Notes under the pieces: model-generated
What the model was told of the DNA's origin: nothing
What the model saw: the letters and a program-made list of their open reading frames with translations, nothing else
Databases searched by the model: none
Position numbers and translations under genes: made by a program
Virus record (IMG/VR): IMGVR_UViG_3300042350_004247
Span: 1-46,828 of that record
Source of the DNA: a virus
DNA: 46,828 nt
Direction: 5' to 3' (one strand)
Shown here: one piece after another, positions 16,236-34,311 of the stretch
Position numbering within the stretch: position 1 is the stretch's first letter
Layout: each line of letters opens with the position of its first letter

Positions 16236-16261
16236 TAATTTACATTATTAATTAAGGTCAT
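16236..16261 (-). promoter_or_regulatory. TGACC-N13-TAnnTTT promoter (copy 1, MoxR gene)
   Basis: ATGACC, 13 nt, TAAATTA, followed after 3 nt by TATAAATA. The -35 overlaps the stop codon of the VWA gene. The start codon of the MoxR gene lies 24 nt past the -10 box. Confidence 0.75.
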
Positions 16262-17502
16262 TAAGAATTAATTTGTACTTTAGCTCCGGGCAATTCATTA
16301 TTAATACTTCGTCCTGAACAATGAACCCATAATGTAGGCTTACATGGTTGTGTTCCGACATTACATTCACCATCAGTTAGATAAATTAAGTTTTGATATT
16401 TATCTTTATTATCCCATAAATAATCAATTACTGGTTCATAACTTGTACCACCTCTACCTGTTACTTCTAAAGCTTCTTCACTTTTACCTTTATATTCATA
16501 AACACGACCAATTGAAGCGTCACATTCAATAACAGTCACTTGTGTACCTGTCTTCCATATATGATATATTTCACTTAAAAATTCTTTTAAATCATCTTTA
16601 CTAACTGAACCTGATGTATCAATAGCAACTAATGTATTTTTCTTTTGTTTAATTTTAAGAGCTGGATTACCATAAAAACGTTTATTTGGTTTACGTCTTG
16701 TTTTCTTAGTATAAACTTTAGATGCCATACCATTAAAACGTCTTAGATAAGCTCTCCAATCAATAACTGCTTCTTCACTTACATATAAATTATCAATTAA
16801 TTCTTTCAACTCACCAGGTATAGTACCTCTTTGTTTTTGTACTTGTTCAGCTACATCTTTAAGTTGATATTCAATTTGTTTCTCCATCAATTTCTTTTCT
16901 GCTTCATCCATACCCTCAAATTGTTTCCAAAACTCATGAGACGCTTTAATAGTTACTTTTGTACCATCTCCTAATGTTATTTCTCCTTGCATACCACCAT
17001 TATTAGCTTCTTTCATTGCATCTAACATCTTACAAATATCTCCATCTGGATTGTCTTTACATTCCTTCATAAGTAACTCATAATACTTTCTAGTACCTGC
17101 TTTTAAAGGCATATTCAATTCTTTAAATGGAGAGTTAGTTATTTCTAAACCATCCCAAGTTTCATCTTTGTATTCGTCTTGAATATATTGATTTATTTCA
17201 ATATCAGCAGCTACATTCAACATTTCTTTTTCTGCAAACTCGTCAAACATTTGTAAGTGTTTAAATGCTATATGTAACAATTCATGTTTCAAAACAGCTA
17301 CCTTACATTTATCACCTATTGATTCCCAAAATGTAGGACTAATAACTAACTTAGTATTAATACCATCTCTAGCTACACATGCAGTTGAAACAGCATCATT
17401 TATTTCTTTATTAAGACCAATTAAAAACAAACCATAAAACGGTTCTTTAAACATTAGCGTTTTTGAGTGTTTAGCTATTTCACTATGCATGTCTGATATC
17501 AT
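16261..17502 (-). CDS. VWA-domain protein with N-terminal HELLH metallopeptidase-like domain
   Basis: This 413-aa protein combines a DUF2201-type N-terminal domain, whose HELLH (73-77) is a zincin-like metal site, with a C-terminal VWA-like domain. The MIDAS motif is DTSGS at 295-299, with TDGE near 375. Such proteins are encoded next to MoxR ATPases, as here. The metal-binding residues look intact. The pair probably acts as a chaperone or protein-remodelling machine; the phage target is unknown. Confidence 0.87.
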   Translation of the reverse strand: MISDMHSEIAKHSKTLMFKEPFYGLFLIGLNKEINDAVSTACVARDGINTKLVISPTFWESIGDKCKVAVLKHELLHIAFKHLQMFDEFAEKEMLNVAADIEINQYIQDEYKDETWDGLEITNSPFKELNMPLKAGTRKYYELLMKECKDNPDGDICKMLDAMKEANNGGMQGEITLGDGTKVTIKASHEFWKQFEGMDEAEKKLMEKQIEYQLKDVAEQVQKQRGTIPGELKELIDNLYVSEEAVIDWRAYLRRFNGMASKVYTKKTRRKPNKRFYGNPALKIKQKKNTLVAIDTSGSVSKDDLKEFLSEIYHIWKTGTQVTVIECDASIGRVYEYKGKSEEALEVTGRGGTSYEPVIDYLWDNKDKYQNLIYLTDGECNVGTQPCKPTLWVHCSGRSINNELPGAKVQINS

Positions 17503-17519
17503 ATATTATAATTTTATTT

Positions 17520-17545
17520 TAAATTAATTATTTAGCCTCGGTCGA
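17520..17545 (-). promoter_or_regulatory. TGACC-type promoter (copy 2, VWA gene)
   Basis: TCGACC, 13 nt, TAATTTA. Same spacing as the other copies with one changed base in the -35. It overlaps the end of the 382-aa protein gene. Confidence 0.6.
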
Positions 17546-18676
17546 GAAAACAACATCCACAATCGCTTCAGCAGCTGAATTACTTAATTTGAATTCACGA
17601 TTAATATTATCTAATAAAAACTTTCTAACAATATCACCTTCTTTACCCGTTTTAAAATTAAGTCTCAACCCAGTACCAAACGATTTCCAATCTCGTTCCC
17701 ACATTATACTCTTAGTTCTTAGTAGTTTTAATAGTCCTTTAAGGTTGGAATTATTATTTGTATAGTAACTAGGTCTGAATTTAGTTGTGTGGAACATTTC
17801 ATTTAATAGGAATGCTATTGTTAATAATGTTGATTGATTTAGAACTAAATTAGACATCATTTCAAAACCTAATTTAATATTAGTTTCATCTTTACTAAAC
17901 AACATATCTCTAAGTGTTTGAAGATATTCATCATCCAATTCAATTCCTTCCTTATTCAATTCAACAAATAAGTCTTCATCAAAAACAAACTTAACATCAC
18001 CATTAATGATATCATCAATTTGACTACATATCAACATCATTAATTCAACTAATTTATTTTCTCTATATGTTTTGAAAATTATCCCTTCAGTTGTGTGTAT
18101 GTTATTATTATATATTTCTCTAACTCCCTGTTGTTTCTTTTCTAACTGTGGCCAATTAATACTTCCCATTCTACTAATATCCACATAGGCTATATTACTT
18201 TTATCCTTGCTATTACTTATGATATTTAAATTTGTCTCATCATTTGAATTATTTCTTTTATCAAAAATAGATGTAACTTGTTTATTAAGAAAATCTTCAT
18301 TAACAAATAAATGATTACCAAAATTTAATTTTCCAATTATATCATTAAAATAACCTTTATTTACTATAATAATATCTGCGGTATTTACTTTAGATGTCTT
18401 CTTAAAATTATTTTCTTTAATATATTCTTTTAATTTGAAACGTGGTATTTCACTTGCTCTAGAAGCATATACAATACAATTCTTTTTTATAATTTTATTA
18501 TTACTATTGCTAATTATTTTAATAGCATTTTTTAATTTAGTACTATCTACACTATTAATAAAATAATCTTCATTTCCCCAATAATGTGATGGTTTAAAAC
18601 CTATACCAGTTAAGGTTTTATTTGAATGATAACTGGACCATTCTCCAAAAGTGACTGATGTTATTCTGTTTAACAT
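17528..18676 (-). CDS. Unknown 382-aa protein of the MoxR-VWA module
   Basis: This protein is not recognised. It is Asn/Lys/Ile-rich with a mixed alpha/beta pattern, including ADIIIVNKGYFNDIIGKLNF around 105-125 and a helical C-terminal half. It sits immediately upstream of the VWA and MoxR genes and has the same type of promoter, so it may be the client or third component of that machine. No catalytic motif is obvious. Confidence 0.75.
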   Translation of the reverse strand: MLNRITSVTFGEWSSYHSNKTLTGIGFKPSHYWGNEDYFINSVDSTKLKNAIKIISNSNNKIIKKNCIVYASRASEIPRFKLKEYIKENNFKKTSKVNTADIIIVNKGYFNDIIGKLNFGNHLFVNEDFLNKQVTSIFDKRNNSNDETNLNIISNSKDKSNIAYVDISRMGSINWPQLEKKQQGVREIYNNNIHTTEGIIFKTYRENKLVELMMLICSQIDDIINGDVKFVFDEDLFVELNKEGIELDDEYLQTLRDMLFSKDETNIKLGFEMMSNLVLNQSTLLTIAFLLNEMFHTTKFRPSYYTNNNSNLKGLLKLLRTKSIMWERDWKSFGTGLRLNFKTGKEGDIVRKFLLDNINREFKLSNSAAEAIVDVVFSTEAK

Positions 18677-18693
18677 ATTTTTATATTTTATTT

Positions 18694-18719
18694 TAATTTA
18701 ATAATCGAATTGAGGTTAA
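18694..18719 (-). promoter_or_regulatory. TGACC-type promoter (copy 3, 382-aa gene)
   Basis: TTAACC, 13 nt, TAAATTA, a one-base variant with the standard spacing, just after the stop codon of the RadA-like gene. Confidence 0.6.
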
Positions 18720-18721
18720 AA

Positions 18722-19546
18722 TTATTCACTATCTTCTTCTTCATTTACAATTGAACCATAGTATATATGATCACTTTGTAACTCATAACCAAACTTCATA
18801 TCAACATTACCATTTCTATTCTTCATAAAGTTCATATATGTTCCACCACCATCACGATCACTTCTTCTTCTCATCTCCATCATTGCGTCTGTCATGTGTT
18901 TCAATTTATTTGAACCTACAAACTCACCTGATTTAGTTACTTGTTGAATTAATAAATGTGATGTGAATTTATCTTGTTTATTTTCACCTTTATTATTCTT
19001 AACACATAAATCAACTAACCATGATTCAGCTTGTTTACGATCCCATTTATTATCATCTCTAACACCTTCTATTATTTCAGCAATTGAATCTATTAATACT
19101 AAATCCCAACCCATATCCATAACTTGTTCAATAACATCTTTTGTATTATGTTCTAAATAATCAGACATAAACAATGTTTGTATTTGACCAAATTGTGGAA
19201 AACGTTGTGTATATTTAAACATTTGTTTTTTACCCATTTCACCTGAAATGAATAAACATTTTCTTCCACGATTTTGAACACCTGATAAAACATCTAATAG
19301 TACAGTTGTTTTACCTACTCCTGGATCCCCTATACACATAATATTTGTAGCACATGGAACACCACCTTCGTGTGATATTAAACTATCAATTGACATACCA
19401 GTTTTCATAGTTTCCATCATTCTTGGATCAATATCTAAATTATTCAATTTTATGATATCAAAACTAATTGGATTTGAAGTAGTAACTGTAAAATTTGCTA
19501 CTTGTTTTTTTGATGGTCTGCCTCTTTTTTTCATAATTGTGTTCAT
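18722..19546 (-). CDS. RadA/RecA-like P-loop ATPase
   Basis: This 274-aa protein has Walker A GDPGVGKTT (about 73-81), a GEMGKKQ segment, Walker B LVLIDS (about 149-154) and a stretch IQQVTKSGEFVGSNKLKHM followed by FMKNRNG. These follow the RadA/Sms and DnaB-like core, without the zinc finger or Lon-like domain of bacterial RadA. A role in recombination or as a helicase/branch-migration motor is likely. Start chosen at ATG 19546: the longer frame from 19591 begins at a TTG that is the -35 element of its own promoter. The N-terminus carries KKRGRPSKK, an AT-hook-like tail. Confidence 0.85.
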   Translation of the reverse strand: MNTIMKKRGRPSKKQVANFTVTTSNPISFDIIKLNNLDIDPRMMETMKTGMSIDSLISHEGGVPCATNIMCIGDPGVGKTTVLLDVLSGVQNRGRKCLFISGEMGKKQMFKYTQRFPQFGQIQTLFMSDYLEHNTKDVIEQVMDMGWDLVLIDSIAEIIEGVRDDNKWDRKQAESWLVDLCVKNNKGENKQDKFTSHLLIQQVTKSGEFVGSNKLKHMTDAMMEMRRRSDRDGGGTYMNFMKNRNGNVDMKFGYELQSDHIYYGSIVNEEEDSE

Positions 19547-19565
19547 ACTTTTTATTTTATCTAAT

Positions 19566-19591
19566 AAATTTAACGTGTCAGTCGCGGTCAA
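19566..19591 (-). promoter_or_regulatory. TGACC-type promoter (copy 4, RadA-like gene)
   Basis: TTGACC, 13 nt (GCGACTGACACGT), TAAATTT. The ATG at 19546 is 19 nt past the -10 box. The TTG of the -35 opens a false N-terminal extension of 15 codons. Confidence 0.8.
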
Positions 19592-19595
19592 TCAA

Positions 19596-19655
19596 TTATT
19601 TATTTTCACTTAATAAACTATACATCAACAAAAACCATAATATTATAATAACCAT
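19596..19655 (-). CDS. 19-aa hydrophobic peptide
   Basis: The frame encodes MVIIILWFLLMYSLLSENK, a single membrane segment. It lies between promoter copies 5 and 4, starts 24 nt after the -10 box of copy 5, and stops just before the next -35 element. This is the same layout as other promoter-gene units here, which supports it despite its length. Confidence 0.4.
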   Translation of the reverse strand: MVIIILWFLLMYSLLSENK

Positions 19656-19679
19656 ATCTCTTATTTCTTATTATATAAT

Positions 19680-19705
19680 AAAGATAGCAAGGGAGTCCGG
19701 GTCAA
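19680..19705 (-). promoter_or_regulatory. TGACC-type promoter (copy 5, in inverted repeat)
   Basis: TTGACC, 13 nt, TATCTTT. The -35 lies within the hairpin at 19691-19720 and shares 18 nt with copy 6. Confidence 0.7.
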
Positions 19706-19720
19706 TAAAGCCGAACTCCC
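19691..19720. repeat. Inverted repeat containing promoter copy 5
   Basis: GGGAGT pairs with ACTCCC and CGG with CCG, leaving a 10-nt loop. The hairpin could be an operator or a transcript-end structure; no strong T-tract follows on either strand. Confidence 0.7.
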
Positions 19721-19741
19721 GAAGATTCACCAAATTGTGAT

Positions 19742-19767
19742 AAAGTTATCAAAGGAGTCCGGGTCAA
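19742..19767 (-). promoter_or_regulatory. TGACC-type promoter (copy 6, in inverted repeat)
   Basis: TTGACC, 13 nt, TAACTTT. It is 62 nt from copy 5, points the same way and has no ATG of its own before copy 5, so the two form a tandem pair. Confidence 0.65.
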
Positions 19768-19780
19768 TAAAACCCGACTC
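19755..19780. repeat. Inverted repeat containing promoter copy 6
   Basis: GAGT pairs with ACTC and CGGGT with ACCCG around loop CAATAAA, with one bulged C. The left arm and loop (18 nt) are identical to those of the hairpin at 19691. Confidence 0.7.
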
Positions 19781-19801
19781 TCTCTTATAAAACGTTATAA
19801 A

Positions 19802-19993: not shown

Positions 19994-20009
19994 AACCTTT
20001 AATTTTAAA

Positions 20010-20174: not shown

Positions 20175-20186
20175 GTTATTAAATTT

Positions 20187-20708: not shown

Positions 20709-20730
20709 AATCTTTATTTTATTTTTATTA

Positions 20731-20964
20731 TTAACGAATTCTTCTTACATCTGCTACTTTTGGTTTAGCATCATCAATATCCTTCTTAGCTCTACTTTCA
20801 GCATTCTTACGTTCCCAATATTTAAATTGTTCTGCAAGTGGTAACATTGTGGGTTCAAAATCTGGATGAGTCTCACTCATTTCTTGTTTGTTACGCTTAG
20901 CTGTTTTTTCAAACTTACTAATCATTCTTTCTTGGTCGGAGTTCTTGTCGTAATAAAATCCCAT
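20731..20964 (-). CDS. Small charged helical protein
   Basis: This 77-aa protein is rich in Lys, Glu and Arg, with no membrane segment or recognised motif. It is preceded by promoter copy 7 and leads the short operon with the 63- and 74-aa genes. Confidence 0.65.
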   Translation of the reverse strand: MGFYYDKNSDQERMISKFEKTAKRNKQEMSETHPDFEPTMLPLAEQFKYWERKNAESRAKKDIDDAKPKVADVRRIR

Positions 20965-20989
20965 ACTTTTTTAATTTTTATTTATGATT

Positions 20990-21015
20990 AAAGATAATAA
21001 ATTAATTTCGGTTAA
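20990..21015 (-). promoter_or_regulatory. TGACC-type promoter (copy 7)
   Basis: TTAACC, 13 nt, TATCTTT; a one-base variant at standard spacing that overlaps the last codons of the 83-aa gene. Confidence 0.6.
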
Positions 21016-21263
21016 TAATCTCCATATCTAGCAAAGGCACGCTTAAAATTCATTTCATGATTCAGCTTATCTTCTTTAAGTCGCTCCTTAAGCCATTCTT
21101 GATATTTAGCTAACTTATAAACCTCCTCACTAATCTTATCACTTAACAAATTTAAACGTTCACTCATACCAGGACTAAAATCTCTACGATTAATAGTCTC
21201 AACACAATAATACAAATCATTCAATTCTTGTTGACTAAGTTCTATTCCGACTTTTTTGCTCAT
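21012..21263 (-). CDS. Helical 83-aa protein
   Basis: The protein (MSKKVGIELSQQELNDLYYC...) is helical with a regular charged pattern and ends in a basic-aromatic tail. It has its own promoter. No family recognised. Confidence 0.68.
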   Translation of the reverse strand: MSKKVGIELSQQELNDLYYCVETINRRDFSPGMSERLNLLSDKISEEVYKLAKYQEWLKERLKEDKLNHEMNFKRAFARYGDY

Positions 21264-21281
21264 GTTTTCTTATTTATATAT

Positions 21282-21307
21282 GAATATACTAAACTAATTA
21301 GGGTCAA
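21282..21307 (-). promoter_or_regulatory. TGACC-type promoter (copy 8)
   Basis: TTGACC, 13 nt, TATATTC, then 3 nt and TATAAATA. It lies directly after the stop codon of the 47-aa gene. Confidence 0.78.
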
Positions 21308-21451
21308 TTAAACATAAAACGTAACTAAATATTTACCATTTGGTGTTTTTCTATAACCAGCTTTAATTTTAGCAGCTGCTAATTTTGCTAACACCTCAGC
21401 TAATTCTTCTTGAGTATCAATTAACTTTCTAAATTCTTTAACGTTTATCAT
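21308..21451 (-). CDS. 47-aa protein
   Basis: The frame encodes MINVKEFRKLIDTQEELAEV, a helix, then a basic beta-like end (GYRKTPNGKYLVTFYV). It is framed by promoter copy 9 upstream and copy 8 downstream, the same unit layout as its neighbours, which supports it as a gene. Confidence 0.6.
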   Translation of the reverse strand: MINVKEFRKLIDTQEELAEVLAKLAAAKIKAGYRKTPNGKYLVTFYV

Positions 21452-21470
21452 AACTTTTTATTTATATAGT

Positions 21471-21496
21471 AAATATAGTAAATTAATTTGGGTCAG
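21471..21496 (-). promoter_or_regulatory. TGACC-type promoter (copy 9)
   Basis: CTGACC, 13 nt, TATATTT, then 4 nt and TATAAATA; the -35 overlaps the end of the 71-aa gene. Confidence 0.75.
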
Positions 21497-21708
21497 TTGG
21501 ATTTAGCGTTTTTTCTTGGTTTTTTAACCATACTACCACTCACCTCACTCACAAGTGAAGGTATTGTTTGACCAACTCCAAGTTGTGTTTTAAACCATAT
21601 CAAACCATCCTCCACTTTAATCACTTGATATTGGGTTTCATCTTTCGCGATTTTAATCCACGAGTTAATAGGTATATCCATATTAAGCGGCTTTTTTATT
21701 GTTAACAA
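21493..21708 (-). CDS. Small SH3-like basic protein
   Basis: This 71-aa protein has a beta pattern (INSWIKIAKDETQYQVIKVE) suggestive of a small barrel and a basic KKPRKNAK tail that could touch nucleic acid. It overlaps the upstream gene by 26 bases, so it is likely co-expressed from promoter copy 10. Confidence 0.65.
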   Translation of the reverse strand: MLTIKKPLNMDIPINSWIKIAKDETQYQVIKVEDGLIWFKTQLGVGQTIPSLVSEVSGSMVKKPRKNAKSN

Positions 21709-22129
21709 ATGATTTACAAGCGTGTGTTTTCGCGTTTACTTGATTCCAAATGTTCCAATCAATCATTTTTGAAAATGCCTGGTGCATATCACCTACAGTT
21801 ATACTTTCTAAAATTGCCTTATCAATTGAATACCATTTACCACCTTTAGTTGTCAACACATGAAACCAATATGATCTACCTGATATTAATCTTTCAACTT
21901 CAACTACAGTTGTGTGTTTAGATATATACCAAGCTAAATCTTTACCCGCACAACTTACATCTTTAATACATTGAAAACCTGCTTTTGCTTTTGCGGTCAT
22001 TCTAAAATTGTAAACAATATCTTCTTTTAATAAATTTGACACACTAATATCCTGACCATTGATTCTAATTGAACCGTAAAAAATATCACTTGTTAAATTT
22101 CCGGTGTTTACTTTGATTAAATTTTCCAT
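21683..22129 (-). CDS. 148-aa protein of unknown function
   Basis: The protein has alternating beta strands (IFYGSIRINGQDISVSNLLK) and a C-terminal helical, Trp-containing segment. Three Cys residues (two at about 54-60, one near 138) may be structural. No family recognised. It has promoter copy 10. Confidence 0.68.
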   Translation of the reverse strand: MENLIKVNTGNLTSDIFYGSIRINGQDISVSNLLKEDIVYNFRMTAKAKAGFQCIKDVSCAGKDLAWYISKHTTVVEVERLISGRSYWFHVLTTKGGKWYSIDKAILESITVGDMHQAFSKMIDWNIWNQVNAKTHACKSFVNNKKAA

Positions 22130-22153
22130 AACTTTTAATTTTTATTTATATCT

Positions 22154-22179
22154 AAATATAGTAATTAAGTTGCGGTCAA
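22154..22179 (-). promoter_or_regulatory. TGACC-type promoter (copy 10)
   Basis: TTGACC, 13 nt (GCAACTTAATTAC), TATATTT, then 3 nt and TATAAATA. Confidence 0.82.
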
Positions 22180-22407
22180 TTACCTATAGTGTATAGTTAC
22201 CCTTGTACACTTATACCCATATGAAACTGTTTCATATAATTTGACATCTAATGTTGGGTCAAGTGATTTGATATAGTTAAAAACTTCTACTGCATTAATA
22301 ACCCTGATTTTAATTCGGCGGGTGCCGGATTTATAAAGGTCATTGTAAAACGCAAAATTTTCTCCAAATTTGTTTCTTAAAACAGGTCTTAATGTTTTCC
22401 AATTCAT
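22180..22407 (-). CDS. 75-aa basic protein
   Basis: The protein (MNWKTLRPVLRNKFGENFAF...) has a ferredoxin-like alternation of strands and helices and ends CTRVTIHYR. It is basic. Function unknown. The stop is one base from promoter copy 10. Confidence 0.65.
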   Translation of the reverse strand: MNWKTLRPVLRNKFGENFAFYNDLYKSGTRRIKIRVINAVEVFNYIKSLDPTLDVKLYETVSYGYKCTRVTIHYR

Positions 22408-22430
22408 AATCTTAATTTTTTATTATAATT

Positions 22431-22456
22431 AAATATAGTAAACAAGTTGCGGTCAA
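22431..22456 (-). promoter_or_regulatory. TGACC-type promoter (copy 11)
   Basis: TTGACC, 13 nt (GCAACTTGTTTAC), TATATTT. The second box is shortened to TATAATA. Confidence 0.82.
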
Positions 22457-22681
22457 TTAACAACCGGCCATTATTTCATTATGCTCATCAATCTGGATTT
22501 GAATATGCCTAAATGAATCATAATTGTATGTAGTATCAAACCACTTACTATTATCATCCCAACCTTTGGGAAACATAGGTGCCAAATCACTATCGGTAAC
22601 TTTTGGGTTAATTAATTTGATAATCGCATCAAAATGGTTTTTTGGTAAACTCACTAAACTCTCTAATTTTTCTTTATACAT
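22457..22681 (-). CDS. 74-aa protein of unknown function
   Basis: The protein contains a Trp/Asp-rich centre (FPKGWDDNSKWFDTTYNYDS) and a short helical end. No family recognised. It has promoter copy 12 and ends where copy 11 begins. Confidence 0.65.
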   Translation of the reverse strand: MYKEKLESLVSLPKNHFDAIIKLINPKVTDSDLAPMFPKGWDDNSKWFDTTYNYDSFRHIQIQIDEHNEIMAGC

Positions 22682-22704
22682 AACTCTTAATTTTTATTAT
22701 ACCT

Positions 22705-22730
22705 AAATATACTGAACTAGTCGCGGTCAT
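22705..22730 (-). promoter_or_regulatory. TGACC-type promoter (copy 12)
   Basis: ATGACC, 13 nt (GCGACTAGTTCAG), TATATTT. The -35 encodes part of the N-D-R-D C-terminus of the upstream gene. Confidence 0.78.
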
Positions 22731-22875: not shown

Positions 22876-22881
22876 ATAATT

Positions 22882-22907
22882 AAATATAGCTAATGAGTCG
22901 CGGTCAG
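22882..22907 (-). promoter_or_regulatory. TGACC-type promoter (copy 13)
   Basis: CTGACC, 13 nt (GCGACTCATTAGC), TATATTT, only 6 nt before the ATG at 22875. The leader is therefore very short, unlike the other copies. Confidence 0.72.
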
Positions 22908-23635: not shown

Positions 23636-23869
23636 TTAGATTGTCTCGTCAGCCGTCACTTCAGCCTTAGGCGCCTTAGACTTAACAGTCTTCGTTTTAG
23701 CTACTACATCCACCTGGATTGTAACTGGATTCTTTGGACGGCCACGTTGTATTGTTCCGCCAGCTGCTACTTTAGCTGCACGCATCGCTAATACTGCCTG
23801 GCGCTTAGAACCTTCTACTGTTGGACGACCACGCTTTACTGATACTGTTTCTGTGTTTGTTTTAGACAT
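23636..23869 (-). CDS. AT-hook-like DNA-binding protein
   Basis: This 77-aa basic protein has two AT-hook-like motifs, KRGRP (about 12-16) and QRGRPKNP (about 41-48), both with the central Arg-Gly-Arg-Pro that inserts into the minor groove of AT-rich DNA. In a genome this AT-rich it could act as a nucleoid-like or promoter-silencing protein. The start at 23869 follows promoter copy 14; the 24-codon extension from TTG 23941 is the promoter. Confidence 0.72.
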   Translation of the reverse strand: MSKTNTETVSVKRGRPTVEGSKRQAVLAMRAAKVAAGGTIQRGRPKNPVTIQVDVVAKTKTVKSKAPKAEVTADETI

Positions 23870-23915
23870 AACCTTGATTTTTATTGTTTGTGTTATTAAA
23901 TACTTATTTATAATT

Positions 23916-23941
23916 AAATATACTATTCGTTTTCGGGTCAA
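23916..23941 (-). promoter_or_regulatory. TGACC-type promoter (copy 14)
   Basis: TTGACC, 13 nt (CGAAAACGAATAG), TATATTT, then 3 nt and TATAAATA. Its leader to the ATG is longer (46 nt) than usual. Confidence 0.78.
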
Positions 23942-23946
23942 TCAAA

Positions 23947-24207
23947 TTAATCAACGTGCGCTTCATAATCTGGAATGAATTGTATATGTGTTGCTATATC
24001 ACACTCCATTGCTCTGAACAAATCAATTGTTCCATATATGCGTTCGAATATCTCTTCTACTATATCTGTTCTGATCATACCATCCACTGTCCACGTATGT
24101 GAACTAAACTTATCTAATAATATGCTCGCTATGTCTTCATAGTCTCTATTTGTTAACCACTCGCATATTTGATTTAAATCCATCCTATTATTTGTGTAAC
24201 CGTTCAT
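23947..24207 (-). CDS. 86-aa acidic protein
   Basis: The protein (MNGYTNNRMDLNQICEWLTN...) is helical and acidic; ATG at residue 9 is an alternative start. Codons are richer in C and G than in most nearby genes. Function unknown. It has promoter copy 15. Confidence 0.65.
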   Translation of the reverse strand: MNGYTNNRMDLNQICEWLTNRDYEDIASILLDKFSSHTWTVDGMIRTDIVEEIFERIYGTIDLFRAMECDIATHIQFIPDYEAHVD

Positions 24208-24229
24208 ATTTTAAATTTTTATTATAATT

Positions 24230-24255
24230 AAATATAGTGATTGTGTTGCGGTCAG
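24230..24255 (-). promoter_or_regulatory. TGACC-type promoter (copy 15)
   Basis: CTGACC, 13 nt (GCAACACAATCAC), TATATTT; the second box is shortened to TATAATA. Confidence 0.78.
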
Positions 24256-24352: not shown

Positions 24353-24371
24353 GTGCTTCTTATTTATAACT

Positions 24372-24397
24372 AAATATAGCATAGGGGTTCCGGTCAA
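24372..24397 (-). promoter_or_regulatory. TGACC-type promoter (copy 16)
   Basis: TTGACC, 13 nt (GGAACCCCTATGC), TATATTT, then 3 nt and TATAAATA. Confidence 0.8.
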
Positions 24398-24446: not shown

Positions 24447-24677
24447 TTAAGCGAATTGCTCGTTCTTCTGACGTCTGCGAGTCAACATGTACATGGTATT
24501 TGCTACCGCGTCTGTTACTCTACGTGCACCACTGATCATGTTTGAGATGTGGCTAACTGAATACCCAGTCTCGTCCGCGATGCGAGTCACGTCGCCAGTG
24601 CGCTTACGATGAGTAAAAAAAGACAATTTCGCTGTACGGTTGAGGTAATTAGCCCTCACTTTTGTTTGATAACTCAT
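24447..24677 (-). CDS. Helix-turn-helix regulator
   Basis: This 76-aa basic protein has a Cro/CI-type HTH: GDVTRIADETGYSVSHISNM (about 29-48), with Ala, Gly and Ser/Ile at the usual positions. It is the only clear DNA-binding regulator among the small genes, so it is a candidate controller of the nearby TGACC-type promoters, though nothing shows this directly. Its codon use (CGT, CGC) is GC-richer than the average of the window. Confidence 0.75.
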   Translation of the reverse strand: MSYQTKVRANYLNRTAKLSFFTHRKRTGDVTRIADETGYSVSHISNMISGARRVTDAVANTMYMLTRRRQKNEQFA

Positions 24678-24967
24678 AACTGTTTGTTTTATTTTAAATT
24701 TTAATTATACTATAATATAACATCATTTTTTTAGGCAACCAAACTTAAGATATATACTTATATAGAGTCCCTGTAGTGGAAGACTTGGAGGCGTGCCCGA
24801 AAGGGGGGAACATAACACAAACATCACATACCCCATATCCAAATCACTTATCACATACCAATACGCACCTCACATACCACACATGCGTTTAACTCACCCG
24901 CTTACCACCCGTTATACTTGTTTGTCACCCTTTAATATCATCGATTTAAGCGCTTATTATTGCGTTT
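24678..24967. other. Non-coding segment with TCACATACC direct repeats (290 nt)
   Basis: No gene is supported. The plus strand is rich in C and A. TCACATACC occurs three times (24824, 24851, 24870), an iteron-like arrangement, and CCCGAAAGGG near 24797 can fold a three-base stem with a GAAA loop. The word TATATAAGTATATAT appears here inverted (24750-24764) relative to its copy at 23163. It may be a replication or regulatory site. Confidence 0.5.
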
Positions 24968-26473: not shown

Positions 26474-26487
26474 AATTTATTTTTCGC

Positions 26488-26562
26488 AGTCAGGGCCGGA
26501 CTCGAACCGGATAAGCAACCATTACTGGACTCGGAACCGTTCCTCATTACGCCCACCTGACT
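26488..26562 (-). tRNA. Atypical tRNA-like sequence, anticodon unclear
   Basis: The 75-nt sequence has a perfect 7-bp acceptor stem (AGTCAGG with CCTGACT), TG at 8-9, a D-loop-like AATGAGGA between CGT and ACG, and a T arm with TTCGAGT in its loop and four of five stem pairs. No five-base anticodon stem with a U33-type loop can be found. A second T-arm-like block (GGTTCCGAGTCC) sits where the anticodon arm should be. CCA is not encoded. It overlaps the stop of the upstream small gene by two bases. It may be a degraded or unusual tRNA. Confidence 0.45.
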
Positions 26563-27928: not shown

Positions 27929-28196
27929 AATTTATAATTTTAAGACCATAACTTAAACCAATCCATATCATTTGTTTTTTAGCCATATATTTAGGCCGAC
28001 GTCTTTCTCTCATTATAATTTTAATAGCAGCATCTACCCACTGATTATTTTGATCTTGAGTCATTGTATATTGTTGAAACCAATTATCAACTTTAAGAAT
28101 ATCTTCATATTGAACATCAGTATAACCAGCAATAATAAACATCTCATCAATGATCATTTTCATTAATTGTTCATCACTTACTTTCTTCAACCTCAT
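27909..28196 (-). CDS. 95-aa helical protein
   Basis: The protein is helical (LKKVSDEQLMKMIIDEMFII), with a basic stretch MRERRRPKYMAKKQ near 66-79. No family recognised. It overlaps both neighbours, by 20 and 23 bases. Confidence 0.62.
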   Translation of the reverse strand: MRLKKVSDEQLMKMIIDEMFIIAGYTDVQYEDILKVDNWFQQYTMTQDQNNQWVDAAIKIIMRERRRPKYMAKKQMIWIGLSYGLKIINYEDKQK

Positions 28197-28398
28197 ATTC
28201 TCTAATTATTGTTTTAGATGGTTTAATATAGTTGTTAACAGCTGCTTCAAATAACTGGTTAGCTGTAACTTCATCTGTTGCTATATCTATAAATGTAGAT
28301 GAATTATTTTCATCAATTAATTTAATATAAAACCAAGTATTAATTTTACCTTGTTTCCATTCAACTTCTTTTTCAATTGTAAATTTTCTTTTTTGCAT
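28174..28398 (-). CDS. 74-aa protein, first gene of an operon
   Basis: The protein (MQKRKFTIEKEVEWKQGKIN...) is beta-rich, with strands FTIEKEVEWK and TWFYIKLID. It overlaps the next gene by 23 bases. It is the first gene after promoter copy 17, and a run of overlapping or near-touching genes continues down to about 24.97 kb. Confidence 0.65.
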   Translation of the reverse strand: MQKRKFTIEKEVEWKQGKINTWFYIKLIDENNSSTFIDIATDEVTANQLFEAAVNNYIKPSKTIIREYEVEESK

Positions 28399-28414
28399 AA
28401 CTTTTATTTTATTT

Positions 28415-28440
28415 TAAATTAATAATTTTATTTAGGTCAA
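28415..28440 (-). promoter_or_regulatory. TGACC-type promoter (copy 17)
   Basis: TTGACC, 13 nt, TAATTTA. It follows the stop codon of the 283-aa gene directly and heads a long run of small genes. Confidence 0.72.
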
Positions 28441-29292: not shown

Positions 29293-29296
29293 AACC

Positions 29297-29524
29297 TTAA
29301 TTTAAGTGTATAAAATTTAATTTTTCATCTGGTGTTACTGGAAGGTAAATTAATTCAGGTCTGTTTGGATAGGCGAATATTTGCACCTTATCAACTCCAG
29401 CATTTATTTCTTCAATGATTAGTTCTACTTGTTCTTCATCTACCCAACCATCACCATCTATATCAACTACATTACCGACGTAATATAAACCATCATATTG
29501 GGGAAAATCATTTTTAGTCAACAT
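29297..29524 (-). CDS. 75-aa acidic protein
   Basis: The protein contains VGNVVDIDGDGWVDEEQVEL, a D-x-D-G-D-G-W pattern that resembles a single EF-hand-like calcium loop followed by a helix; whether it binds calcium is unknown. It is preceded by promoter copy 18. Confidence 0.65.
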   Translation of the reverse strand: MLTKNDFPQYDGLYYVGNVVDIDGDGWVDEEQVELIIEEINAGVDKVQIFAYPNRPELIYLPVTPDEKLNFIHLN

Positions 29525-29547
29525 AACCTTAATTTTTATTTATAATT

Positions 29548-29573
29548 AAATATAGTGAATTAATCCAGGTCAA
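29548..29573 (-). promoter_or_regulatory. TGACC-type promoter (copy 18)
   Basis: TTGACC, 13 nt (TGGATTAATTCAC), TATATTT, then 3 nt and TATAAATA. The -35 and the following codons encode the last residues I-D-L-D of the upstream gene. Confidence 0.82.
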
Positions 29574-29760
29574 TTAAAAAATCCCATTGGGCATTAATTG
29601 CTTCTTTACCTATTATCTCTATTTCATATTCAGCTTCCATTTCCATTACTGTGCCTAATTCTCTAATTTCAACTAATTTATTCCAATTATCAACAGTCTT
29701 ATTTTCCATATAAACCTTGGTTAGTTCAAATTCTAAATCCATTAATTTTTCTAATGTCAT
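29560..29760 (-). CDS. 66-aa acidic helical protein
   Basis: The protein (MTLEKLMDLEFELTKVYMEN...) is acidic and helical; it has its own promoter (copy 19). Its final codons contain the -35 box of copy 18, so the end of this gene and the start of the next transcript are locked together. Function unknown. Confidence 0.65.
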   Translation of the reverse strand: MTLEKLMDLEFELTKVYMENKTVDNWNKLVEIRELGTVMEMEAEYEIEIIGKEAINAQWDFLIDLD

Positions 29761-29783
29761 ATACTTAATTTTTATTTATAATT

Positions 29784-29809
29784 AAATATAGCATATGAGT
29801 TGCGGTCAA
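29784..29809 (-). promoter_or_regulatory. TGACC-type promoter (copy 19)
   Basis: TTGACC, 13 nt (GCAACTCATATGC), TATATTT, then 3 nt and TATAAATA. Confidence 0.83.
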
Positions 29810-30163: not shown

Positions 30164-30206
30164 TGGTCACACATAGGGTTTATTTAATTAGAAATAAATT
30201 GTCTGC

Positions 30207-30215
30207 TATAAATAT
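30207..30215 (-). promoter_or_regulatory. ATATTTATA box before the 117-aa gene
   Basis: ATATTTATA immediately follows the T-tract of the terminator at 30216-30249 and is 44 nt before the ATG at 30163. This is the expected place for a promoter of the 117-aa gene, though the word is common by chance. Confidence 0.3.
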
Positions 30216-30249: not shown

Positions 30250-30280
30250 GAAATAAAAATTAAAAGTATGAATACAAAGT

Positions 30281-30988
30281 TTAAATTATTTTATTTGAAT
30301 ATCTTTTTATTTGTGCTTCTTTCATTTTTTGTTTTGTTTCTTCTGAGTGTTTGCAACCTTTTAACTTTAAGTTAGGTTTACCTTTTAATGACTCACTACG
30401 TTTATGTTTTGTCTCTTCAGATTGTTTATTGCCGTAATGACCATGTTGTTCACCTTGTTTTGTTATATTATATTTTTTACCTTTTTTCGCCTCACTTATA
30501 TTTTTTCTAGTTTCATCATTTCTTTTTGAACCAATTATATTTTTGAAACGATTCTGTATATGCTCTAATGTTTGTTTTTTACCTTTATTTTTATTTTTAT
30601 TTCCTTTAATTAATCTTTCTTTAGCTATTCCTATTCTAGGTTTTCCTTTCGTGGCTTTACTTATATTTATTGCTCTAGTTGGATGATTTTGAGATTTTAA
30701 CTTCATTTCTTCTGTCCAATATTCAGGACCACTACCGCCTTTTTTACGTTTATTTATTACTTCAAACCCCCACTGTTTAAATTGTTCAATCCAATATGTT
30801 TCTAATGGTTCCCAATTGTATTTAATTAATGACTCTATTTGATCTATAACAGTAAATTTGATTTGTTTACCATATGTTTTTTCATGAGCTTCTTTTCTCC
30901 AATTTAAATTTTTAGTCTTACCTATATAAACTTTATTAGTTCCTTTTTCTATATTTTCAATTAAATATATATAAGTGATGTTTGTCAT
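30281..30988 (-). CDS. GIY-YIG homing endonuclease (SegA-like) with NUMOD3 repeats
   Basis: This 235-aa protein has the GIY-YIG pattern in its N-terminus: TYIYLIEN (5-12) and VYIGKTKNLNWRKEAH (20-35, with the Arg and His), and a Glu in LETYWIEQF. The C-terminal half holds NUMOD3-like repeats (EHIQNRFKNI..., SEETKHKRSES, SEETKQKMKE) that bind DNA. The protein probably cuts phage DNA to spread its own gene. It is a paralogue of the gene at 32844 and has a similar leader sequence. It is followed by a strong terminator. Confidence 0.9.
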   Translation of the reverse strand: MTNITYIYLIENIEKGTNKVYIGKTKNLNWRKEAHEKTYGKQIKFTVIDQIESLIKYNWEPLETYWIEQFKQWGFEVINKRKKGGSGPEYWTEEMKLKSQNHPTRAINISKATKGKPRIGIAKERLIKGNKNKNKGKKQTLEHIQNRFKNIIGSKRNDETRKNISEAKKGKKYNITKQGEQHGHYGNKQSEETKHKRSESLKGKPNLKLKGCKHSEETKQKMKEAQIKRYSNKII

Positions 30989-31024
30989 ATTAATAAATAT
31001 CTCTGCATACCCATAAAGTGGTCT

Positions 31025-31408
31025 TTATTCAATCATAAAAGGATTGTTGGAAAAAATTTCATAGTAGCACATCCATTTATATTTTCTCTCCATTCTATTA
31101 GCCTCTCGTTCTAATGGATGGTTTTTATAACTATATGTCTCTTGTAATTTATTATATTTTCGTTTTATACTCTGATGGTAATGAGTATATTCATGAATAA
31201 CTGTGCCTATAAATCCTACAAATGTTCTATGTTTACCTTTATAGACATGTATTTCATTATTATAAACATCATAACATCCTGCCCACTCACCTTTCTTATG
31301 AAATACTAATTTGGGATAAGAACCATTTATAGTACTAGCACCAAATGTTTTTTTACACCAATCAAAAATTTTAACTGTGTTTTTCCTGTTTATGTCTACT
31401 GTATTCAT
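31025..31408 (-). CDS. SprT-like zinc metallopeptidase
   Basis: This 127-aa protein contains VIHEYTHYHQS at about 87-97, the HExxH zinc site of SprT/WSS1-like peptidases. LEREANRMERKYKW, a downstream Glu-containing helix, may provide another ligand. SprT-like proteins can cut DNA-crosslinked proteins, but phage forms vary. It overlaps the upstream gene by 38 bases in another frame. Confidence 0.75.
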   Translation of the reverse strand: MNTVDINRKNTVKIFDWCKKTFGASTINGSYPKLVFHKKGEWAGCYDVYNNEIHVYKGKHRTFVGFIGTVIHEYTHYHQSIKRKYNKLQETYSYKNHPLEREANRMERKYKWMCYYEIFSNNPFMIE

Positions 31409-31694
31409 GGTTTAGTTCTTTTAATATTTTTTGAATTTCAATACACTCTTCAAACATATCGTTTTCTGAGAATGCACTTAGACAAGTATTAAGAGACACA
31501 ACCCACTGATCACGATTAAGTATAAACTCAACCATTTCATTTTTTATATGAAGTGTAAATGCTGTTACCTGTTTACGCTTACGTTTATCATTAAACGCTT
31601 TTTTAATTTGATTGAATACTTCAACTGATATACTTATATCTTTACTTTCTATCTTGTTCTTAAACTCCTCAATCGACTCAAATTTAAACACCAT
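31371..31694 (-). CDS. 107-aa protein, paralogue of the 36056 gene
   Basis: The protein has a C-terminal segment W-V-V-S-L-N-T-C then EECIEIQKILKEL, matched by W-K-Q-S-L-Q-S-C and EACAEIKILIDKI in the 106-aa protein at 36056. Both are small alpha/beta proteins with an FELxxxEYYVEL-like strand pair. Function unknown. An ATATTTATA box precedes it. Confidence 0.68.
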   Translation of the reverse strand: MVFKFESIEEFKNKIESKDISISVEVFNQIKKAFNDKRKRKQVTAFTLHIKNEMVEFILNRDQWVVSLNTCLSAFSENDMFEECIEIQKILKELNHEYSRHKQEKHS

Positions 31695-31707
31695 AGTCAG
31701 TATTTGA

Positions 31708-31716
31708 TATAAATAT
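31708..31716 (-). promoter_or_regulatory. ATATTTATA box before 107-aa gene
   Basis: The box is 14 nt before the ATG at 31694. The paralogous gene at 36056-36376 has the same box 14 nt from its ATG, so the spacing is preserved between the two. Confidence 0.4.
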
Positions 31717-31735
31717 ACCAGATGAAGCGGAGTGT

Positions 31736-32524
31736 TTAATTAACAAACTCCTCAGCCAGCTCCCATAATGCCTCATTGATCTTCAAATCCTGGCTGAAAT
31801 TCTTGACTGCTCTAGCTTTGCGTGTTTTAACTCCATTCATATAACTACAGCCGCCGCTGATTAATTTTTCTTGAACTCGATTAAACACAACCCATAAATT
31901 ATTACCTTCATCTGCTTTACGCTCAGCTACTAACAATTCACTTAAATCAACTTTAACACCCTCACCAAATCTAACCGCAGATGCTTTTTCAGCAAACTTA
32001 GTTACTTGTTTATCACTTAATTCGATGTTTTGAAATTTGTTAATTTTTTCAACTAGTCCTGGAAATGATCCAACTGCCTCATTAATTTTTTCAGTTAATT
32101 CAGCAAATGTATATCCCATGTGGCGTAGTTTAAAATCACCATAACTAGTATCCATAACTACTAATCCATTTGAACATACTAATCTAAACAATCCAATTTG
32201 AAACTTAAATGAACTTAATCCATCATGACTATTTGTTAATAGTATTTGTGGAAATACATCATCTCCATTAACACCTTCAATCACAATGTCTGGATTAAAA
32301 AACTTAATCATGTGTCGTTGATAACCTTTAGTAGATTTTTTACGAGCTTTAATCTCAACCGCTTGGCACGGCTTCCAACCTAATGACATCATGTCATTTA
32401 TTACTCTGTCGGTCGGAATGTGAACGTAATGTTCACTCAGGTTAGCTTTTTGCTTTGTCTGAAAAATACTTGGAGCTGCTTGTTTGACCTGCTCCATGGT
32501 CAATTCTGTGAATACGTTACTCAT
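31736..32524 (-). CDS. DUF932 / phage-plasmid-type protein
   Basis: This 262-aa protein fits the DUF932 family (phage/plasmid-like proteins found also near T4-type modules). Key parts are HYVHIPTDRVINDMMSLGWK at about 27-46, a later FKFQIGLFRLVCSNGLVVMD segment, and the C-terminal helix EALWELAEEFV. The role of the family is not established. It is driven by promoter copy 20. Confidence 0.82.
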   Translation of the reverse strand: MSNVFTELTMEQVKQAAPSIFQTKQKANLSEHYVHIPTDRVINDMMSLGWKPCQAVEIKARKKSTKGYQRHMIKFFNPDIVIEGVNGDDVFPQILLTNSHDGLSSFKFQIGLFRLVCSNGLVVMDTSYGDFKLRHMGYTFAELTEKINEAVGSFPGLVEKINKFQNIELSDKQVTKFAEKASAVRFGEGVKVDLSELLVAERKADEGNNLWVVFNRVQEKLISGGCSYMNGVKTRKARAVKNFSQDLKINEALWELAEEFVN

Positions 32525-32549
32525 AATTTTTAATTTTTATTTATATAAT

Positions 32550-32575
32550 AAATTTAACGTACAAACTGCGGTCAA
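32550..32575 (-). promoter_or_regulatory. TGACC-type promoter (copy 20)
   Basis: TTGACC, 13 nt (GCAGTTTGTACGT), TAAATTT, then 4 nt and TATAAATA. It lies one base past the thioredoxin stop codon. Confidence 0.8.
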
Positions 32576-32576
32576 A

Positions 32577-32837
32577 CTAACTGAATTGTTGGATAGTACT
32601 AATCAATTGACCACGACTCATAATACCTGATTGGCGATATACAATATTTTCACCTATTTCAAATATAATTGTTGGGACACTTGAAATCATATATTTAGAT
32701 ACTAATTCACTACTTGTATCAACATCTATTTTATTAAAATTAACCCCAGTCTCATTCATTACTCCATCAAATACTGGACTAAATGATTTACATGGTCCAC
32801 ACCAAGCAGGAGCTGTAAAGTATAAAATTTTTAACAT
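32577..32837 (-). CDS. Thioredoxin
   Basis: This 86-aa protein has the thioredoxin active site WCGPC at 12-16 and cis-Pro55 in SSVPTIIFE, with the usual beta-alpha-beta order. It probably reduces ribonucleotide reductase or another phage target. It is the last gene of the run that starts at promoter copy 21, after the second homing nuclease. Confidence 0.92.
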   Translation of the reverse strand: MLKILYFTAPAWCGPCKSFSPVFDGVMNETGVNFNKIDVDTSSELVSKYMISSVPTIIFEIGENIVYRQSGIMSRGQLISTIQQFS

Positions 32838-32843
32838 ATTATT

Positions 32844-33452
32844 TTAATTTTTAAATTTCCAAATATAATTATAAGCTGTTTTTTGTTTTCCCCTACATAC
32901 AGCTCCTATTCCATCATTATTAGGCTTATTAAAAAACAATTGAGCTTCTTTTTGTGAGTTCCATTCCTGAATAAAATTTCCTTGTAAATCAAATTGCAAA
33001 ACAGGTGATATATACCAAGTATTTTTTCTTCCTATTAAATGTCCTCGTTTTTCTTTTATTTTAATTTTATGTTCATTAGTAAATGTTTTACCTTTAAAAT
33101 AACTTACTCTTCCTTTATTAGATTCACTTATTTTTAACCCTCGCTCTTTATTATTCTTTAATTTAATCTTCATCTCCTCAGTCCAAAATTCTAACCCACC
33201 TCCTCCTTTTTTATTATTATTCACAATTTTAAATCCCCATTGTCTGAATTGTTCTAACCAATATGTTTCTAATGGTTCCCAATTTTTTCTATATAATGAT
33301 TTTACTTGATCTATAATAGTGAAATTGATTTGTTTACCGTATGTTATTTTATGTTGATTTTTTCTAATAAAAGGAGATTTAGTTTTACCTATATAAACTT
33401 TATTAGGATCTCCATAACAATTCTCAACTAAATATATATATGTGATATTCAT
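32844..33452 (-). CDS. GIY-YIG homing endonuclease with NUMOD1-type domain
   Basis: This 202-aa protein has TYIYLVEN (4-11), VYIGKTKSPFIRKNQH (about 19-34) and a Glu in LETYWLEQF, the GIY-YIG core. The C-terminus carries PVLQFDLQGNFIQEWNSQKE, a NUMOD1-type DNA-binding motif. The N-terminal half is closely similar to the other homing nuclease in this window, while the C-terminal half differs, so the two share a catalytic module with swapped DNA-binding parts. Confidence 0.9.
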   Translation of the reverse strand: MNITYIYLVENCYGDPNKVYIGKTKSPFIRKNQHKITYGKQINFTIIDQVKSLYRKNWEPLETYWLEQFRQWGFKIVNNNKKGGGGLEFWTEEMKIKLKNNKERGLKISESNKGRVSYFKGKTFTNEHKIKIKEKRGHLIGRKNTWYISPVLQFDLQGNFIQEWNSQKEAQLFFNKPNNDGIGAVCRGKQKTAYNYIWKFKN

Positions 33453-33456
33453 CTAT

Positions 33457-33465
33457 TATAAATAT
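33457..33465 (-). promoter_or_regulatory. ATATTTATA box before GIY-YIG gene 2
   Basis: The box is 5 nt from the ATG at 33452. A one-base variant (ATATTTATT) lies 4 nt from the ATG of the paralogous gene at 30988, and a 17-nt block with one mismatch precedes both. Confidence 0.4.
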
Positions 33466-33498
33466 TCCCACACACCCATAAAGTAGTCTTCATATTAT

Positions 33499-33816
33499 TT
33501 ATTTAAAAAATTTTAAAAAATTATACCATCTACGTTTTGTTTTAAATGGTACTTCAAATGGTTTTGTATTATTATCACATCTAACAACACCTCCATATCT
33601 AACCATCATCATTTGTATTAATATCTGATGCCATTCATTAGGTATTTTTTCAAAATCAGCTTTAATCTCAATAGGTAATTCAATTATTGGGTATGATGCA
33701 TCACCAGTGAATAACATTAAATGATCTTTCATTTGAACAGTATAGGATGACTTAACTGTAAGATGTTGTCCATTTCCTATATGATACTGACCCTGCTTAC
33801 TATTTACTTTAGCCAT
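33499..33816 (-). CDS. 105-aa protein of unknown function
   Basis: The protein is beta-rich in its first part (GQHLTVKSSYTVQMKDHLML) and ends in a basic helix (FKTKRRWYNFLKFFK). No family recognised. It is in the same run as the SWIM-zinc-finger gene. Confidence 0.65.
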   Translation of the reverse strand: MAKVNSKQGQYHIGNGQHLTVKSSYTVQMKDHLMLFTGDASYPIIELPIEIKADFEKIPNEWHQILIQMMMVRYGGVVRCDNNTKPFEVPFKTKRRWYNFLKFFK

Positions 33817-33830
33817 ATATTAAATATAAT

Positions 33831-34262
33831 TTATTTAATTTTAATATCCAAATTTTTCTCTCTCAACGCTATAACATGTTTACAATTACCTTTACTTCTC
33901 CAAAATCCCATACATGTACATTTATAAGTATTTTTATTTGGATTGTAAGTTGTTTTATACTTACCCATTGAACCATCAATATGTTCAATTATTTTTTTCT
34001 GTTTTGGTTTAATCCAAACAACATCTTCAAATTTAGTTTCTGGATGTACTTCTATCCACATTGGGACTAGATATGTTTTATTGTCTCTATCTGATTTATA
34101 AATTGTTGGAGGTAAATGATGTTCAATATGATATTTAAATCGACTAGCGTAACTAGATATGATTTCATCTCGTTTAGGATAAATTACAATTGGTTCTGTT
34201 GAACTAACTATTTCATTTATAACTGTCCCATTTGTGAACATTTTCTTAAGTGTCCATAACAT
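33831..34262 (-). CDS. SWIM zinc-finger protein
   Basis: This 143-aa protein has a SWIM motif near the C-terminus: C-x-C-x9-C-x-H (Cys115, Cys117, Cys127, His129 in YKCTCMGFWRSKGNCKHV). SWIM domains bind DNA or protein. The N-terminal part is unassigned. It is preceded by promoter copy 21. Confidence 0.85.
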   Translation of the reverse strand: MLWTLKKMFTNGTVINEIVSSTEPIVIYPKRDEIISSYASRFKYHIEHHLPPTIYKSDRDNKTYLVPMWIEVHPETKFEDVVWIKPKQKKIIEHIDGSMGKYKTTYNPNKNTYKCTCMGFWRSKGNCKHVIALREKNLDIKIK

Positions 34263-34285
34263 AACCTTAATTTTTATTTATAACT

Positions 34286-34311
34286 AAATATAATAACCTA
34301 ATCTAGGTCAA
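34286..34311 (-). promoter_or_regulatory. TGACC-type promoter (copy 21)
   Basis: TTGACC, 13 nt (TAGATTAGGTTAT), TATATTT, then 3 nt and TATAAATA. It overlaps the stop codon of the HNH gene. Confidence 0.82.

Follow-up and report, generated by a model that had tools for sequence, protein, structure and literature searches.

The stretch analysed here, hereafter the window, is the whole of IMG/VR virus record IMGVR_UViG_3300042350_004247, a linear record of 46.8 kb (46,828 nucleotides) with nearly every gene on the minus strand, and our subject is a family of 21 predicted promoters found in its small-gene region. The encoded proteins are those of a contractile-tail phage and include a baseplate wedge protein, an endolysin, a MoxR-type ATPase, a VWA/metallopeptidase protein, a RecA/KaiC-like ATPase, a DUF932 protein and a glycosyltransferase-like protein. 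By its baseplate protein, the closest cultured relative is Flavobacterium phage immuto_2-6A (160 kb; 46% identity; host Flavobacterium sp. LMO8), hereafter immuto, whose gene order (glycan genes, DUF932, small early genes, phosphohydrolase, structural block) matches that of the window. We infer a T4-like phage with a host among the Bacteroidota, the 21 sites lying in its early/middle small-gene region; their class and position are read directly from the DNA, while their timing would be early or middle.

Twenty-one sites of one architecture

A preliminary description of this DNA had listed 21 sites with a fixed spacing of 13 nt between an upstream element and a -10 box. A regular expression written from that finding, [TCA][TC][GA]ACC-N13-TA[ACT][ACT]TT[TCA]A, matched exactly those 21 sites on the minus strand and nothing on the plus strand, and each of the other spacings from 6 to 23 gave 0-2 matches. 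Across 300 dinucleotide shuffles, scanned on both strands, the mean was 0.55 matches and the maximum 3. The strict form TGACC-N13-TAnnTTT occurred 15 times on the minus strand and was absent from the plus strand. A weight matrix, proposed in the preliminary description as a check together with shuffled controls, placed 18 sites above 14 bits on the minus strand, none on the plus strand and 0.25 in shuffles; it was built from 17 of the 21 sites, the scores of which are thus in-sample. These 18 separated sites scored 14.8-33.7 bits. Four weaker sites (16236, 17520, 18694 and 28415) have a -10 of the form TAnnTTAA and scored 9.6-14.8 bits. Three of them (16236, 17520 and 28415, at 9.6-11.1 bits) are close to noise on sequence alone, and all three adjoin gene starts on the upstream side; 16236 and 17520 recur before the same genes in relatives, while 18694 is backed only weakly by orthologs.

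Column by column, the core of the 21 sites reads T-T-G-A-C-C, with A, C, C invariant, followed by a weaker G-C-R-A-C/T-T. The -10 reads TA-T/A-A/C-TTT-A and is followed by an A-rich leader and an ATG. Since the base following TAnnTTT is A in 21/21 sites, the box is TAnnTTTA, which extends by one base the TAnnTTT of the preliminary description. As had been claimed, the sites lie upstream of genes, with an ATG 6-46 nt past the -10 in 19 of the 21; the site at 19742, however, has no open reading frame (ORF) of its own. Several boxes touch the gene before them, either beginning at its stop codon or falling within its last codons. The 21 sites, which form a single class of predicted promoters with mostly one site to a gene, are as follows.

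16235..16261, minus strand: promoter ATGACC-N13-TAAATTAA, before the MoxR-like ATPase gene 15016-16212; weak match in the window
17519..17545, minus strand: promoter TCGACC-N13-TAATTTAA, before the VWA/metallopeptidase gene 16261-17502, within the end of the upstream gene; weak
18693..18719, minus strand: promoter-like TTAACC-N13-TAAATTAA, before 17528-18676; weak, poorly conserved
19565..19591, minus strand: promoter TTGACC-N13-TAAATTTA, before the RecA/KaiC-like gene 18722-19546
19679..19705, minus strand: promoter TTGACC-N13-TATCTTTA, within a hairpin, before a short ORF with its start near 19655
19741..19767, minus strand: promoter TTGACC-N13-TAACTTTA, within a hairpin, in tandem with 19679..19705
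20989..21015, minus strand: promoter TTAACC-N13-TATCTTTA, before 20731-20964
21281..21307, minus strand: promoter TTGACC-N13-TATATTCA, before 21012-21263
21470..21496, minus strand: promoter CTGACC-N13-TATATTTA, before 21308-21451
22153..22179, minus strand: promoter TTGACC-N13-TATATTTA, before 21683-22129
22430..22456, minus strand: promoter TTGACC-N13-TATATTTA, before 22180-22407
22704..22730, minus strand: promoter ATGACC-N13-TATATTTA, before 22457-22681; box overlaps the upstream gene's end
22881..22907, minus strand: promoter CTGACC-N13-TATATTTA, before an ORF with its start at ~22874
23915..23941, minus strand: promoter TTGACC-N13-TATATTTA, before the gene for an RGRP AT-hook-like small protein, 23636-23869
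24229..24255, minus strand: promoter CTGACC-N13-TATATTTA, before 23947-24207
24371..24397, minus strand: promoter TTGACC-N13-TATATTTA, before a short ORF with its start at ~24352
28414..28440, minus strand: promoter TTGACC-N13-TAATTTAA, before 28174-28398; weak -10
29547..29573, minus strand: promoter TTGACC-N13-TATATTTA, before 29297-29524; box overlaps the upstream gene's end
29783..29809, minus strand: promoter TTGACC-N13-TATATTTA, before 29560-29760
32549..32575, minus strand: promoter TTGACC-N13-TAAATTTA, before the DUF932 gene 31736-32524
34285..34311, minus strand: promoter TTGACC-N13-TATATTTA, before the SWIM zinc-finger gene 33831-34262

The A-rich leader of the sites is in keeping with Bacteroidota, which do without Shine-Dalgarno sequences and prefer A ahead of the start codon (PMC6847099).

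The box in relatives and sister lineages

Seventy-nine loci from relatives were fetched via the VWA protein. The TGACC box is present where that protein is ~75% or more identical to the window's (clade A) and absent at 64% and below. Clade A yielded 119 distinct sites, which are not independent (L013, almost the same as the window, supplied 13, and some of the rest come from close relatives), with the consensus TTGA-TTGACCGCRACT-N7-TA(T/A)(A/C)TTTA. On contigs that lay outside the building of the pattern, TGACC-N13 was found 23, 18, 16, 9 and 13 times on the gene strand versus 0-1 times on the other, and 70 of 94 out-of-sample sites (74%) had an ORF start 8-60 nt downstream, versus 19% for all such -10 boxes. 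The claim of one transcription class with a fixed architecture is thus supported out of sample, in independent relatives. Chance or base composition as the origin of the sites was rejected on the shuffles, the strand, the spacing and these contigs. Even the weak site 16235..16261 has orthologs with ATGACC and a standard TAHHTTTA (in A39, G003 and G004), and 17519..17545 lies at the same place in six other clade A contigs. Confinement to 16.2-34.3 kb, also claimed originally, holds within the window; however, as the 102-kb clade A relative A39 also has three sites at 14-20 kb and three near 87 kb, the class is not tied to one block.

The full consensus was sought in 84,980 bacterial and archaeal genomes, where it gave 10 matches, each the only one in its stretch and with no Bacteroidota-named record among them, and in a viral set, where it occurred in 51 stretches, nearly all from this phage group. 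With only 10 single matches in so many genomes, the full consensus is no common host promoter, and a host-derived promoter type was rejected on its absence from the Bacteroidota-named records.

In contrast to clade A, the 154.8-kb contig of clade B held only one TGACC-N13 match, on the wrong strand, and the 160-kb immuto genome held none. There the element upstream of the -10 is TTG, 20 nt away: TTG-N20-TATATTTA occurs 34 times in clade B and 23 times in immuto on the gene strand, 0 times on the other, and 6 times in A39. Around TTG there are lineage-specific extensions, TTGGCT in clade B and TTGCC/TTGCTAG in immuto. Neither class was found in VWA-protein relatives at 44-48% identity and below, or in Mel-JY01 and LR756508. 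The window itself has sites of the TTG-N20 class.

24712..24742, minus strand: TTG-N20-class promoter TTGGTTGCC...GATGTTATATTAT, before the small HTH-like (helix-turn-helix) gene; same type in clade B
33821..33851, minus strand: TTG-N20-TATATTTA site, before 33499-33816, a 105-aa gene particular to clade A

The SWIM, RecA-like, MoxR, VWA and AT-hook genes are preceded by TGACC-N13 in most or all clade A contigs and by TTGG-N20 in clade B. The 17528-type gene has TGACC-N13 only in the window and G008 within clade A, and TTGG-N20 in clade B, whereas the DUF932 gene has TGACC-N13 in clade A versus TTG-N20 in immuto. At orthologous genes the -10 is identical across all three lineages. Because such genes carry either TGACC-N13 or TTG-N20, the upstream element is lineage-specific while the genes and the -10 are constant; this exchange, like the restriction of the box to clade A, is observed directly, and the differing boxes before the same genes suggest that the whole promoter set was rewired together. 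Both types also occur at one gene within clade A, the HTH gene being preceded by the TGACC type in A39 and G003 but by TTG-N20 in the window, G004 and G008, as it is in clade B. In A39, TTG-N20 sites precede the putative genes for an 862-aa DNA polymerase and GroES, named from size, order and the immuto annotation. As the two classes occur side by side within single clade A phages, the box is not explained by a shift in sigma-A preference throughout the host.

The Flavobacterium sigma-A box TAHHTTTG spans -12 to -5 (PMC9723704, PMC6847099). On this scale (TA at -12), the TTG of TTG-N20 occupies its normal place, -35 to -33, whereas TTGACC covers -31 to -26, its core 4 bp closer than the usual TTG, and the extended TGACC(GCRACT) reaches from -31 to about -20. 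Among the 119 clade A sites A, C and C are present in 100%, G in 91% and T in 95%, followed by the weaker GCRACT, and the box holds far more information than a -33 element. Where it is present, the -33 TTG is degenerate (T 66, T 66, G 42%); even so, TTG stands at the usual N20 in 37/119 sites, with 2.2 expected and 0-6 at any other offset. The preliminary description was right that the upstream element differs from the usual TTTG, but because TTG is kept at N20 in a third of the sites, TGACC is an added box just downstream of -33 and no simple shifted -35.

The -10 had been said to fit the Bacteroidota TAnnTTTG, and its TAnnTTT part does. G at both H positions of TAHH is at 0% in the 119 sites, as in sigma-ABfr promoters, TAHH without G being the fingerprint of the primary sigma-ABfr (PMC6847099). 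Position -5 departs from that consensus: G is nearly invariant there in Flavobacterium johnsoniae (PMC6847099), but the phages have A in 21/21 window, 38/38 clade B, 27/27 immuto and 23/25 A39 sites, the last three counts from searches that left this base free. As immuto infects a Flavobacterium, A at -5 is a phage-group-wide departure from the known host consensus.

Several observations stand beside these comparisons. Hairpins surround some promoter boxes (window 19679-19795, minus strand, e.g. GGGAGTTCGGCTTTATTGACCCGGACTCCC) and resemble a terminator merged with a promoter; they are also present in L013, L015, L018, L031 and clade B (there TTTGGCCCTTCGGGGCC). The small protein of 23636-23869 (minus strand) has two RGRP motifs (AT-hook-like) and the RecA/KaiC-like protein of 18722-19546 (minus strand) an N-terminal KKRGRPSKK, both proteins being kept in clades A and B. 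A stretch resembling a transfer RNA (26,480-26,560, minus strand) has a good T-arm, CCGGTTCGAGTCCGG, and a similar stretch near 5.9 kb of G002 in clade B shows conservation between lineages; ARAGORN makes no call. PP395634.1 (Microcystis phage Mel-JY01), a record with essentially neither early promoter class, encodes a baseplate protein 45% identical to the window's, near the Flavobacterium phage value, and its Microcystis host label may merit checking.

Candidate readers of the box and rival explanations

Proteins considered as possible readers, and a second motif preceding structural genes, are listed below.

11674..12432, minus strand: T4 gp55-like protein heading the structural block, candidate late sigma factor
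11650..11658, minus strand: putative late-promoter box ATATTTATA, before structural gene 11290-11637
7496-7504, 3915-3923, 30207-30215, 31708-31716, 33457-33465, 36390-36398, minus strand: further ATATTTATA boxes
24447..24677, minus strand: 76-aa HTH-like protein, tested and disfavoured as box reader

The sigma-like protein is 53% identical to a clade B protein and has an immuto ortholog, gp118, annotated as hypothetical. Four of the 19 members of its family match phrog_234, 'late sigma transcription factor', weakly (best E 2.8e-4), and a Sigma70_r2 match fell below the cut-off. Its AlphaFold model is of low confidence (predicted local distance difference test 67, predicted template modelling score 0.40); most of the fold matches listed are sigma factors, none of them significant, and comparison with solved structures gave no match. 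It is a probable T4 gp55-like late sigma factor. ATATTTATA occurs 11 times on the gene strand and 0 times on the other, with a strong strand bias also in A39, clade B and immuto; the boxes listed above lie 3-32 nt before the starts of structural and some other genes. It is probably the late promoter. Because the sigma-like protein heads the structural block, where ATATTTATA occurs, it is a candidate for the late genes and not for the TGACC class. The structural block also contains the endolysin gene (3940-4542, minus strand), apparently a moved gene: its best immuto match lies at 43.7 kb (60%), and A39 has no endolysin at that place.

The HTH-like protein is disfavoured as reader, since its recognition helix changes from SVSHISN to SERMIYY within clade A while the box is unchanged, and clade B has the window's SVSHISN helix yet lacks the box. 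None of 42 clade-A-only gene clusters was recognisable as DNA-binding. Among them, gene 33499-33816 (105 aa), which has a TTG-N20 promoter, is a lead only.

We give about an even chance to the reading that the 21 sites are sigma-A promoters with a clade-specific box read by a phage-made, MotA-like factor, a protein that is postulated here and was not found. Host sigma-A would bind the -7 box TAHHTTTA, given its match to the sigma-ABfr box, and TGACC(GCRACT) would be an element specific to the phage lineage, placed just 3' to a -33 TTG that has partly decayed. A phage DNA-binding protein, made early or injected, would occupy this element 13 bp upstream of the -10 and would recruit or re-aim the sigma-A RNA polymerase, as MotA does at T4 middle promoters; late genes would use ATATTTATA, probably with the phage's own gp55-like sigma factor. 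The wider proposal, which we hold a little more tentatively, is that T4-like phages of Bacteroidota have a sigma-appropriation system of their own, in which a clade-specific activator reads TGACC(GCRACT) at -30 and an early/middle regulon of ~20 promoters moved from TTG-N20 to TGACC-N13 with its genes and TATATTTA kept. Several results weigh against an activator of this kind. No MotA or AsiA homolog (PF09158/PF09010 at E<=1) and no sigma region 4 (PF04545) was found in 12 records, several of them incomplete, and no covariation with the box was seen for the one small protein recognisable as HTH. In addition, TTG at N20 in TGACC promoters is still 17-fold above chance, and across the 119 sites there is no trade-off between TTG and box, the box core scoring slightly better with TTG present, which disfavours simple replacement of the one by the other.

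A rival reading is of plain strong early promoters, served by host sigma-A alone, in which a lineage-specific TGACC extension strengthens the upstream element and has stayed alike among the copies through recombination or shared selection. The sister lineages too have lineage-specific TTG extensions, for which we know of no dedicated factor; the canonical TTG is partly retained and no activator emerged from the 12 records. T4 early promoters likewise have extra consensus regions with no phage factor required (PMC2988021). We nevertheless consider this explanation unlikely, though it deserves serious attention, since a G/C-containing box of 6-11 bp whose A, C, C (-28 to -26) never vary matches no known sigma-A contact, the full consensus was not seen in the Bacteroidota genomes scanned, and both promoter classes occur in the same phages. 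The box might instead be an operator on which a phage repressor or shut-off protein silences all early promoters together; an asymmetric, regulon-wide box at a fixed position in the spacer would suit a common operator, and the region has a gene for a small HTH-like protein. A repressor, however, needs no rigid 13-bp spacing, yet the spacing is invariant; it would leave a good -33, yet the -33 is degenerate; and the HTH helix, as mentioned above, changes without the box and is shared with box-less clade B, all of which makes an operator quite improbable. We regard as very improbable that a separate sigma factor, of the phage or an alternative one of the host, reads TTGACC and TAHHTTTA as -35 and -10. 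Such a factor would account for the fixed spacing and for A at -5 in three phage lineages versus G in the host, and a sigma-like protein is present in the phages; but clade B and immuto share that protein while lacking TGACC, its gene stands at the front of the structural block, and the sigma region 4 search of the 12 records was negative. Moreover, a TAHH that lacks G marks promoters of the primary sigma-ABfr (PMC6847099), and TTG-N20 and TGACC-N13 have one common -10.

Significance and likeness to known promoter systems

In the literature searched we found no description of promoter classes for phages of this group. The analysis yields a well-defined class whose reader can be tested for, a sister class that is represented in culture (by immuto), and pairs of promoters at orthologous genes whose differences lie only upstream of the -10. 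Two questions thereby become testable: how Bacteroidota phages take control of a sigma-A polymerase that is out of the ordinary, and how the many promoters of one regulon exchange a recognition element in concert. If the proposed sigma-appropriation is true, the concerted change of a regulon's cis-element can be watched. The boxes, if active, may also give Bacteroidota genetics promoter parts that are strong and compact.

In T4, the distance between the MotA box and the -10 is 12 +/- 1 bp, and at 13 bp the box covers -35 to -26 (PMC2988021), a position shared by the present box. T4 middle promoters thus resemble the present class in having a phage-specific box about -30, 13 bp upstream of a strict host-type -10, in a -35 that is partly or wholly given up (the TTG here being kept in 37/119 sites and lost in the others), in dozens of copies and in a strong demand on the -10. 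In contrast, the box here is TGACC(GCRACT) and not TGCTT, the -10 is of Bacteroidota type, canonical -33 remnants stay and the search for MotA/AsiA homologs was negative; given this result and the differing box sequence, we liken the class to T4 middle promoters without assigning it to them. T4 early promoters, which are extended, over-consensus sigma-70 promoters, similarly come as numerous, almost identical copies, each ahead of a single small gene and with further positions conserved, but in the present phages the upstream element varies between sister lineages while the -10 is constant, and the place of the box is not that of a -35. With sigma-ABfr promoters (TTTG/TAnnTTTG) the class shares TA, two non-G bases and TTT, as well as TTG at N20 in the sister phages and in a third of the TGACC sites; it differs in having A and not G at -5 and in its additional TGACC box, which lies 4 bp nearer than the -33. 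The early promoters of immuto_2-6A and clade B stand before the same genes with the same TATATTTA box and single-gene layout, and differ in carrying TTG-N20 (GTTGC or TTTGGCT) in place of TGACC-N13.

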